Source: Methanosarcina horonobensis HB-1 = JCM 15518
GTDB taxonomy: Archaea > Halobacteriota > Methanosarcinia > Methanosarcinales > Methanosarcinaceae
Length of the DNA: 64,000 nt
NCBI RefSeq assembly: GCF_000970285.1
Contig: NZ_CP009516.1
Coordinates: 1,963,036-2,027,035 of the forward strand
Reading direction: 5' to 3'
Part shown: in pieces, positions 45,743 to 61,499 of the stretch
Position numbering within the stretch: position 1 is the first letter of the stretch
Layout: each line of letters begins with the position of its first letter
The notes under the pieces: generated by a model
Database searches by the model: none
What the model saw: the letters and a program-made list of their open reading frames with translations, nothing else
Told to the model about the DNA's origin: nothing
Made by a program: the position numbers and the translations under genes

Positions 45743-45882
45743 TGAAAAAATCATACTGTGGATTTCCCTGCCAGAAGCCAGATTATTCTTCGACCCCCGA
45801 AACAAAAGTATTTGTGGATTTTGAGCAAGGCTTTTTCCCGGCTATTATTTTACTGCATGCTCAGACAGCAGAAAGTGTGTAA
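45743..45882 (+). CDS. Possible short ORF in leader A (MKKSYC...)
   Basis: ATG AAA AAA TCA TAC TGT opens 46 codons: MKKSYCGFPCQKPDYSSTPE, then TKVFVDFEQGFFPAIILLHA. In leader C the same start is followed by a stop after MKKSY, and leader B has MKKAYC joined to another tail. So it is either a decayed gene or a variable leader peptide. No ribosome site stands out. Confidence 0.25.
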
Positions 45883-45895
45883 CCAGGGGAAGAAG

Positions 45896-45976
45896 ATATG
45901 GTTAACCCAGCTTTTTCAAGATTTACAAAATAACAGTGAAGATTATGGCTTCGCCTCTATTGGCGAACTAACATAA
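45896..45976 (+). CDS. Conserved 26-residue mini-ORF with AUA start (leader A)
   Basis: ATA TGG TTA ACC CAG CTT TTT, 26 codons, ending DYGFASIGELT and TAA. Aligned with the mini-ORF at 60866 the two have the same length; differences are largely at third positions, and stops differ (TAA versus TGA) while remaining stops. This pattern fits selection on the peptide. The start is ATA here but ATG in the other copy. GGGG lies six bases upstream. Confidence 0.5.
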   Translation: MWLTQLFQDLQNNSEDYGFASIGELT

Positions 45977-46035
45977 AAACACAATAAACAACAAAATATT
46001 TGACATAAAATTTGACATAAAAGGAGGCTCGAATT

Positions 46036-46548
46036 ATAGCAACGTTAACAGTTCTGAAGTTTGAGACTGCTGGTGGTGCTGAAAAGGCACTTCATGTGGT
46101 AGAGGATTTGAGCAAGAAACAGTTGATTACCCTGCAGGATGCAGCTATAGTCACCTGGCCTGAGGGGAAAAATAAACCAAAAACCAAGCAATTAACCAGT
46201 ATGTCCGGGGTAGGTGCGCTTAGCGGAGCCTTTTGGGGTATGCTGTTTGGTCTGATTTTCTTTGTCCCGATATTTGGTATGGTTGTTGGAGCTGCACTGG
46301 GCGCACTAACCGGTTCCATGGCTGATGTGGGGATCAGTGACGATTTTATCCGGTCGGTCCGCAGCAAAGTGACAGAAGGCACATCAGCCCTCTTCTTGAT
46401 GACCAGCGATGCCGTACTTGATAAGGTAAAGGAAGCCTTCAAAGGAATGGACTTTGAACTCATTGCTTCCAACCTGTCCAAAGAAGAAGAGGACAAGCTG
46501 CGTGCAGCCTTTGCAGAAGAAGGAGAAGAAGTAGCTCCAGCATACTGA
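46036..46548 (+). CDS. DUF1269 protein, AUA start (paralogue A)
   Basis: 170 residues from ATA. AAAAGGAGG ends eight bases before ATA, and an in-frame TAA at 46018-46020 lies just ahead of the ribosome site; the next canonical start is GTG at 46096, twenty codons in, which would delete the conserved ATLTVLKFETAGGAEKAL. The body has SWPEGKKKPKT-like motif (TWPEGKNKPKTKQ), a glycine-zipper hydrophobic hairpin (GALSGAFWGMLFGLIFFVPI, GMVVGAALGALTGS) and a stress-type tail. Likely a membrane-inserted small protein. Near-identical to 47829 and 60993. Confidence 0.85.
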   Translation: MATLTVLKFETAGGAEKALHVVEDLSKKQLITLQDAAIVTWPEGKNKPKTKQLTSMSGVGALSGAFWGMLFGLIFFVPIFGMVVGAALGALTGSMADVGISDDFIRSVRSKVTEGTSALFLMTSDAVLDKVKEAFKGMDFELIASNLSKEEEDKLRAAFAEEGEEVAPAY

Positions 46549-47389: not shown

Positions 47390-47828
47390 CAGACCCGATA
47401 AAATAAATCAACATGCATAGGATAATATATATAAAAGAATAATTATATAAAGCAAAATATTAATATCGAGCTTGGGGGGAGCAGGCTCGAAGGTTCCTTA
47501 GGGGTTAACAGCATCAAAATTTACGGTAGATACCTGGCAAGCAGTTTTCAGAGTAATAAAAGACATCTGACAAAATCTCAAGCTTTCAGGTTCAAACCGA
47601 TAATCAAAAAGGCATTTTAATGGAATTTATTTCGCTCAGGATAGCTTTGTCTATGGCAGGATACCAGTATCTCTAGATACCAGTATCTATGAACCGTAAG
47701 GCCATGAGGAAACAACCCATGAAGAAAGCATACTGCATTAATGGAGATAACGGTTACACCTTGATTGGCGAGCTGGCATAAAAACAAAGCAACGAAGAAA
47801 AAAAGTGAATATAAAAGGAGGTTTAAAC
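47390..47828 (+). promoter_or_regulatory. Conserved promoter and long leader, DUF1269 module B
   Basis: CAGACCCGATAAAATAAATC, GATAATATATATAAAAG, then ATCGAGC-TTGGGGGGAGCAG-GCTCGAA, a seven-pair version of the hairpin, and AGGGGTTAACAGCATCAAAA. Leader about 370 nt with a mini-ORF at 47704/47719. Confidence 0.65.
47704..47781 (+). CDS. Conserved 25-residue mini-ORF (leader B)
   Basis: MRKQPMKKAYCINGD, then NGYTLIGELA and TAA; an internal ATG at 47719 with GAGG nine bases upstream would give 20 residues. Its tail GxxxIGEL[AT] matches the mini-ORFs of leaders A and C, and its stop lies 47 bases before the AUA start of the next gene. Confidence 0.45.
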   Translation: MRKQPMKKAYCINGDNGYTLIGELA

Positions 47829-48317
47829 ATAGCAACTCTAACAGTTCTAAAATTTAACACTCCTCGCGGTGCAGAAGATGCACTTGCAGTGGTAGAGGAT
47901 TTAAGTAAGAGGCAACTGATCACTCTGCAAGACGCAGCCATCGTCTCCTGGCCTGAGGGAAAAAAGAAGCCAGAGACAAGCCAATTAACCAGCATGGCCG
48001 GGGCAGGCGCACTGAGCGGGGCATTCTGGGGCATGCTGTTAGGCCTGATCTTTCTGGTTCCGATCTTCGGGATAGTCGTCGGAACAGCTATTGGTGCACT
48101 GTCCGGCTCCTTTGCCGACGTGGGGATCAGTGATGATTTCATAAAGTCGGTCCGCAGCAAAGTGACAGAAGGCACATCAGCCCTGTTTTTGATGACCAGC
48201 GATGCCGTACAGGATAAGGTAAAGGAAGCTTTCAAAGGAATGGACTTTGAGCTCATTGCTTCCAACCTGTCCAAAGAAGAAGAAGACAAATTGCGTGAAG
48301 CCTTTGCTGAAGAATAA
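47829..48317 (+). CDS. DUF1269 protein, AUA start (paralogue B)
   Basis: 162 residues from ATA 47829. AAAAGGAGG ends seven bases upstream. An in-frame GTG at 47805 exists but lies before the ribosome site, which would then be inside the gene. Same domains as paralogue A: ATLTVLKFNTPRGAEDALAV, SWPEGKKKPETSQL, zipper GALSGAFWGMLLGLIFLVPI. The 3' part is almost identical to A, with many third-position changes, so the duplication is old enough for drift but the protein is conserved. Followed by an arylsulfatase-C-terminal-like gene. Confidence 0.83.
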   Translation: MATLTVLKFNTPRGAEDALAVVEDLSKRQLITLQDAAIVSWPEGKKKPETSQLTSMAGAGALSGAFWGMLLGLIFLVPIFGIVVGTAIGALSGSFADVGISDDFIKSVRSKVTEGTSALFLMTSDAVQDKVKEAFKGMDFELIASNLSKEEEDKLREAFAEE

Positions 48318-60410: not shown

Positions 60411-60992
60411 CAGACCTGATAAAATAAATCAACCTGCATAAAATAATATATATAAAAGAATGATTATATAAAGAAGAATATTGAACAACGAGCTTGGGGG
60501 AAATCTCGAAGGTTCAACTGGGGTTGACAGTATAAAAATTAACATATAGCTGTCTGCAAGCGGTTTTCTTAATTAAAGAGACGTTTGACATATCTCAGCA
60601 CCCGGGTTGAAATTGATAGTATTCAAAAAACAATTTTTAATTGATTCACCTACCTCTGGACAGCGTAGTCTGTGGAAGGATATCGGTATATCGAAACATG
60701 CAAGGTTACACTGCATGAAAAAATCATACTAAGGGCTTTCCTGCAATAAACTGGCTATTCCCTTGTCCCCACTACAAAAAGCTTGAGGGATTTAAGTAAG
60801 GCTCTTTCCCGGCTAAGATGCTGCTGCATGTTGAGACAGCAGAAAGTGTGTAGCCAGAGATGAAGATGAGATTAACCCGGCTTTTTCAAGATTTACAAAA
60901 CGATAATGGAGATGATGGTTTCACCTCTATTAACGAACTGACGTGAAAATATAATAACCAGCAAATATGTCGCATAAAAGGAGGTTTGAATT
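60411..60992 (+). promoter_or_regulatory. Conserved promoter and long leader, DUF1269 module C
   Basis: CAGACCTGATAAAATAAATC, ATAATATATATAAAAG, a second ATTATATAAAG, then ACGAG-CTTGGGGGAAAT-CTCG and GGGGTTGACAG. Longest of the three leaders (about 510 nt) with decayed MKKSY region and the mini-ORF at 60866. Confidence 0.65.
60866..60946 (+). CDS. Conserved 26-residue mini-ORF (leader C)
   Basis: ATG AGA TTA ACC CGG, 26 codons, MRLTRLFQDLQNDNGDDGFT and SINELT, TGA. Same length as the one in leader A, tail IxELT preserved. Stop 46 bases before the AUA of the DUF1269 gene. Confidence 0.5.
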   Translation: MRLTRLFQDLQNDNGDDGFTSINELT

Positions 60993-61499
60993 ATAGCAAC
61001 TTTAACAGTTCTGAAATTTGAGACCGCTTATGGTGCTGAACAGGCTCTTCAGGTGATTGAAGATTTAAGCAAAAAACAGTTGATTACCCTGCGCGATGCA
61101 GCCATAGTCAGCTGGCCTGAGGGGAAAAAGAAACCAAAAACTAAGCAGTTAACCAGTATGACCGGGGTAGGTGCACTGAGCGGTGCTTTTTGGGGCATGC
61201 TATTTGGGCTGATCTTTTTTATTCCTATATTTGGCCTTGTAGCCGGAGCCGCAATAGGGGCTCTTGCCGGTTCCCTGTCCCATGTTGGTATTGATGAAGA
61301 TTTCATAAAGTCTGTCCGCAGTAAAGTAACTGAAGGCACTTCAGCTCTCTTTCTGATGACCAGTGACATGGTGGAGGATAGGGTTGCAGATGCCATGAAG
61401 CAATTCAAGTTTGAAATTATTGCTACCAATCTGTCCAGGGAAGAAGAAGACAAGCTGCATGCTGCCTTTGCAGAAGAAGAAGCAGCGCCTGCACACTGA
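60993..61499 (+). CDS. DUF1269 protein, AUA start (paralogue C)
   Basis: 168 residues from ATA. AAAAGGAGG ends eight bases upstream. The codon two before ATA is TGA (60987-60989), so only ATT or ATA can open the frame; the next canonical start, ATT/GTG-type, would be 20 codons in (GTG 61053) and lose ATLTVLKFETAYGAEQALQV. Same zipper GALSGAFWGMLFGLIFFIPI and tail as paralogue A. More divergent at the end (MVEDRVADAMKQFKFEIIAT). The clearest case in the window for initiation at AUA or AUU. Confidence 0.87.
   Translation: MATLTVLKFETAYGAEQALQVIEDLSKKQLITLRDAAIVSWPEGKKKPKTKQLTSMTGVGALSGAFWGMLFGLIFFIPIFGLVAGAAIGALAGSLSHVGIDEDFIKSVRSKVTEGTSALFLMTSDMVEDRVADAMKQFKFEIIATNLSREEEDKLHAAFAEEEAAPAH

Follow-up and report, generated by a model that had tools for sequence, protein, structure and literature searches.

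The window, a 64,000-nucleotide stretch of the Methanosarcina horonobensis HB-1 genome, holds three genes for DUF1269 membrane proteins, here called paralogues A, B and C (Table 1), and a genome search recovered exactly these three copies. Paralogue C resembles the rest of the family (PF06897) in its MATLTVLKF-type N-terminus, its glycine-rich membrane segment and its full match to the profile (130.9 bits against a curated cut-off of 26.9, positions 1-99 of 100 matched). It thus combines a match above cut-off across the whole domain with the conserved N-terminal strand of the family, which follows directly on the start and whose residues 1-8 are invariant in 16 sequences. Unlike other DUF1269 genes, which open with ATG in Methanolobus and nearly all bacterial homologues, it appears to start with ATA.

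Table 1. Features of the three DUF1269 genes (window positions) and of further genes with putative near-cognate starts (positions prefixed G000:C1)
Feature	Position	Strand	Remarks
Shine-Dalgarno sequence (SD) AGGAGG, paralogue A	46022..46027	+	
DUF1269 paralogue A, probable ATA start 46036-46038	46036..46548	+	
SD AGGAGGT, paralogue B	47816..47822	+	
DUF1269 paralogue B, probable ATA start 47829-47831	47829..48317	+	sole other candidate GTG 47805-47807, 5' of SD
SD AGGAGGT, paralogue C	60979..60985	+	complementary to 16S rRNA 3' end ...GATCACCTCCT (read from L233)
In-frame TGA, two codons 5' of paralogue C start	60987..60989	+	
Probable ATA start codon, paralogue C	60993..60995	+	evidence: sequence, SD spacing, homologue codon table, Ile-column control
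DUF1269 membrane protein, paralogue C, 168 aa plus stop	60993..61499	+	PF06897 E 2.5e-38
cbiG (L234; orthologues L235-L263, L402-L430)	G000:C1:496598-497158		ATA behind AGGAGGT
NikA-like gene, 154 aa (L368; L369-L397)	G000:C1:974031 on		SD-led start
ABC transporter ATPase (L278; L279-L287)	G000:C1:626619-627548		SD-led ATT
ablB, beta-lysine acetyltransferase, TIGR03827 (L264; L265-L276)	G000:C1:562208-563179		

At the 5' end of paralogue C (leader AAAAGGAGGTTTGAATTATAGCAACTTTAACA) the in-frame TGA is followed by ATT (60990-60992), ATA and GCA (from 60996), exactly as the initial annotation had described it. The codons after ATA, GCA ACT TTA ACA GTT CTG AAA TTT, encode ATLTVLKF, and a perfect SD lies 7 nt 5' of ATA. 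No ATG, GTG or TTG occurs between the TGA and the conserved N-terminus IATLTVLKF, which bears out the earlier claim that only ATT or ATA can open the protein, a choice that can now be narrowed to AUA. The first canonical codon, GTG at 61053, falls within the conserved region and has no SD. The non-canonical start is shared by the other paralogues, as had been proposed: A (leader AAAAGGAGGCTCGAATTATAGCA) reads ATT-ATA, with a TAA seven codons before GCA, and B (leader AAAAGGAGGTTTAAACATAGCA) reads AAC-ATA, its only other candidate being a GTG that lies 5' of the SD, nine codons before GCA. Across 800 kb of this genome, the spacing from GGAGG to ATG is most often 6-8 nt (36 of 61 pairs), with four pairs at 1-2 nt, including one at 2 nt, and none at 5 nt. 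The ATA codons of A, B and C, at 7-8 nt from their SDs, match this optimum.

Further upstream, a leader of about 100 nt (AGCAGAAAGTGTGTA...CTTTTTCAAGATTTACAAAA; window 45850-46020 and 60830-60980) is common to A, C and most orthologues, in copies with ATA and copies with ATG alike. A conserved small ORF 5' of A and C was considered and rejected because reading frames are not kept, and for the same reason the shared stretch is probably a promoter or leader element. A local hairpin masking SD and AUA is predicted in all three copies, with z scores (-0.5, -1.7 and -2.1) not clearly beyond chance.

The start position across DUF1269 homologues

DUF1269 relatives were gathered from the genus and the family, and for each the codon corresponding to the start was recorded, leaving out a copy at a contig edge (L029, AGG at the start place). 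ATA stands at this place in 15 distinct full-length copies from 13 genomes of Methanosarcina and a sister genus (g5, with UBA9310 and BL5_bin.6 as named members). In 14 further copies from the same set ATG takes this place, in the same position relative to the SD; no third codon occurs among archaeal full-length copies with a readable leader. Methanolobus copies have ATG in 8 of 8 cases, and bacterial homologues, with few exceptions, carry a start codon there as well, usually ATG and in a few cases GTG or TTG. Among the homologues examined, then, only Methanosarcina and its sister genus have the ATA start.

The initial annotation had suggested comparing the same locus in related Methanosarcina genomes and had stated that its reading would fall if every orthologue opened with a longer or a canonical N-terminus. 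What the comparison returned is ATA in orthologues from ten genomes (G004, G026, G028, G025, G018, G010, G022, G036, G038 and G039). Orthologues of C read TGA-ACT-ATA in G026 and G004 and TGA-ACC-ATA in G028, with ATA as the sole candidate. SD and ATA are fixed among the 15 copies, although the preceding codon may be ATT, AAT, AAC, ACT, ACC or GTT and neither the type of the upstream stop nor its distance is constant; a single sequencing error, as had been argued from A and C, is no explanation for this pattern, and neither is chance. In nine of the 15, not a single ATG, GTG or TTG occurs from the upstream stop to the conserved N-terminus. Two others, L162 (from the 5.75-Mb genome G001) and L164, carry an in-frame ATG two codons upstream, and L158, L155 and L168 a TTG at the same distance. 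These codons, 1-2 nt behind GGAGG, are too close to the SD by the spacing typical of this genome, yet could be usable, so that not every ATA copy is equally forced.

Is ATA kept more strictly than coding would require? In the 15 ATA-copy proteins six isoleucine columns are invariant, and each of them mixes ATC, ATT and/or ATA. A single codon is kept in only 7 of the 80 residue-invariant columns, whereas the start triplet is ATA in 15 of 15. The N-terminus just after ATA is apparently translated, since pN/pS over codons 2-20 is much the same in ATA copies (0.32) and ATG copies (0.31).

Copies with ATA have GGAGG in 14 of 15 cases, copies with ATG in 5 of 14 (Fisher p 0.0017). On the tree, four independent pairs mostly agree with this association and none oppose it (p 0.125), so that the link is suggestive but not significant once relatedness is removed; weak start codons have been linked to strong SDs elsewhere, a pattern that DUF1269 matches (PMC5622118). 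At least four changes are required to account for ATA on a codon tree, and a single clade of ATA copies is rejected (AU p 3e-63). The initial annotation had called the start in C independent of that in A. This is right only in part: A, B and C belong to one gene family in which gene conversion may have spread the 5' end between paralogues, and four independent origins are therefore not to be claimed. The ATG of bacterial and Methanolobus homologues suggests that the ancestral start codon was ATG.

Two further observations concern the history of the family. Many broken DUF1269 fragments occur in G002, G011, G016 and G017, with up to 13 matches in one genome, which suggests repeated duplication and decay. 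The closest bacterial homologues, L092 and L093, come from Anaerolineae MAGs and have 68-70% protein identity, a similarity that suggests horizontal transfer between Chloroflexi and methanogens.

Other genes with near-cognate starts

A screen of 2.0 of the genome's 5.0 Mb for SD-led coding frames without a canonical start, with A, B and C left out, returned eight frames with near-cognate start codons (seven kinds) and five with all other sense codons together. Two of the matches are ATA genes unrelated to DUF1269, namely cbiG and a NikA-like gene. The signal emerged only when absence of canonical starts and coding potential were required; the bare combination of SD and ATA, unfiltered and genome-wide, is in no excess over SD and ATT.

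The start of cbiG is ATA in 30 of 30 Methanosarcina genomes and in every Methanosarcinaceae locus examined, across nine genera. Its best NCBIfam match is cobalt-precorrin 5A hydrolase (NF004465), below the full-length cut-off because the frame stops early; the CbiG_N Pfam match is above cut-off. This start overlaps the end of the upstream gene, cbiF, in a different frame, so that the SD and the TA of the start are fixed by cbiF, but the A is the wobble base of a leucine codon. That codon is YTA (CTA or TTA) in 47 of 47 distinct contexts, compared with 8.8% of cbiF leucine codons elsewhere.

The NikA-like gene, whose label is a weak Pfam match below cut-off, starts with ATA in 26 of 29 Methanosarcina genomes, with ATT in two, including G007 (L373), and ATG in one, and the residues that follow vary; a relative in the sister genus, L397, has ATA too. 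The ABC transporter ATPase has a conserved ATT start, present in each of the 10 orthologues whose start is intact. As for ablB, the codon 7-8 nt behind the SD is ACG, GCG or ATG, mostly without a canonical start; initiation at GCG would be most unusual.

Initiation at AUA and its alternatives

Could the DUF1269 genes be opened in some other way? One simple possibility is the ATT just upstream: it precedes ATA in both A and C, AUU starts are known, for example that of E. coli infC, and other Methanosarcina genes, such as the ABC ATPase, seem to use it. The initial annotation had accordingly proposed "AUA (or AUU)". Of the two only AUA stands, as the corresponding codon is AAC in B, ACT in L157 and L159, ACC in L163 and GTT in L030, and a codon that varies in this way cannot be a shared start. 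ATT would also sit 5 nt from GGAGG, a distance at which the 800 kb contain no ATG start. Initiation at ATT is, in our estimate, most improbable. The same holds for translation from GTG 61053 or another internal codon, with the upstream part untranslated. This GTG is canonical and the sole start listed by ORF calling, but it has no SD to lead it, 16 homologues agree in all of the eight residues after ATA, purifying selection acts on codons 2-20, and bacterial homologues almost always start at the ATA position.

It is also very unlikely that the protein is made without AUA, whether by stop-codon readthrough, by a frameshift from an upstream start or by editing of AUA to AUI/AUG in the RNA. Some DUF1269 copies do have an in-frame ATG, TTG or GTG upstream, but nine ATA copies lack any such codon, and upstream stops that change in type and distance contrast with a constant SD and ATA. 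AUU-started genes in the same genus disfavour A-to-I editing, pointing to a general tolerance instead. Finally, the ATA copies might be decaying pseudogenes or sequencing errors, and several genomes do contain degenerate DUF1269 fragments. We find this hardly credible, however, for 15 distinct full-length copies whose pN/pS (0.19-0.32) is the same as that of ATG copies and which have retained the SD better than the latter.

We therefore consider it highly probable that AUA 60993-60995 is a genuine, if inefficient, start of paralogue C, and likewise of A and B, read by the CAU initiator tRNA and rescued by the strong SD. Three hallmarks of near-cognate AUN starts of the infC type are found here: no canonical start in frame (in A, C and the orthologues of C), an SD at the preferred distance and a codon conserved beyond coding need. 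The near-perfect SD would position the small ribosomal subunit with AUA in its P site, at the spacing that this genome favours. There the usual initiator Met-tRNA would pair with A and U and tolerate a C-A mismatch at the third position, giving a product that begins Met-Ala-Thr-Leu-Thr-Val. Initiation would be weak, perhaps a tenth of that at AUG by analogy with bacteria, with the strong SD compensating, and the outcome could be stable low or condition-sensitive expression through start-codon discrimination by aIF1. At least two unrelated genes of the family, cbiG and the NikA-like gene, may use the same device. Initiation at AUA, methionine as the first residue, the low efficiency and any regulatory role are what we infer from these patterns.

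A special initiator tRNA reading AUA was considered and rejected: CAU is the anticodon in both initiator-type tRNA genes, and none of the 52 Rfam tRNA matches was recognised as having UAU, although a few of them, odd or with introns, were left unclassified by ARAGORN. Another match that ARAGORN left unclassified is L232 (G000:C1:2731810-2731892), tRNA-like but low-scoring at 33.6 bits.

Bacteria and mitochondria are both known to use AUA starts. In Staphylococcus aureus those of infC, ccpN and citZ have been proven by antibiotic-arrested profiling and reporters, extended SDs were noted for infC, ccpN and cvfC1, and expression from the AUA sites tested (ccpN and citZ) was about 10% of that from AUG, with as much as 30% in the case of ccpN (PMC13009471). 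As in infC, ccpN and citZ, the AUA described here is kept in evolution and is the sole plausible start, and its SD is strong, as are theirs in infC and ccpN. The present case differs in that it concerns an archaeon and three unrelated gene families, and in resting on sequence evidence. In E. coli, infC and pcnB have AUU starts that limit expression and are regulated by IF3, a factor absent from archaea. The likeness to these genes is an inefficient AUN start kept by selection; the differences are that the codon is AUA, not AUU, and that aIF1 would be the archaeal analogue of IF3. This genome has a single aIF1 gene. Sulfolobus aIF1 is reported to discriminate against non-canonical starts, which counts against the use of AUA (PMC6237735). 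Together with the efficiencies in S. aureus, this discrimination leads us to expect low or condition-dependent expression.

In archaeal genome annotation the starts are generally ATG, GTG and TTG. Among the open-access papers searched, none described AUA starts in archaea. A review of archaeal initiation names AUG, GUG and UUG only (PMC7531240), and no switch to AUA is listed for the 61,358 ancestral AUG starts of 36 groups of related prokaryote genomes (PMC5622118). Counting against the use of AUA, the starts reported for unannotated small ORFs in M. mazei Ribo-seq data are ATG, TTG, GTG and CTG (PMC11456600). From the comparisons presented here AUA, ignored by annotation programs, seems to be in regular use as an archaeal start signal. 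If a start codon is conserved across an archaeal family in several unrelated genes, N-termini and whole genes will have been mis-called. A more tentative idea, which we regard as possible but would not wager on, is that Methanosarcinaceae have a small regulon of unrelated genes in which AUA (AUU, perhaps ACG) starts are favoured by selection and not just tolerated. Coupled to strong SDs, these starts would tie output to initiation fidelity, through aIF1 or the state of growth, in the manner of bacterial IF3 control but on an archaeal ribosome. Conserved AUA starts would in any case offer a natural test of how strictly aIF1 and aIF2 select codons in archaea, and G018, with AUA- and AUG-started paralogues in tandem, supplies a ready-made comparison.
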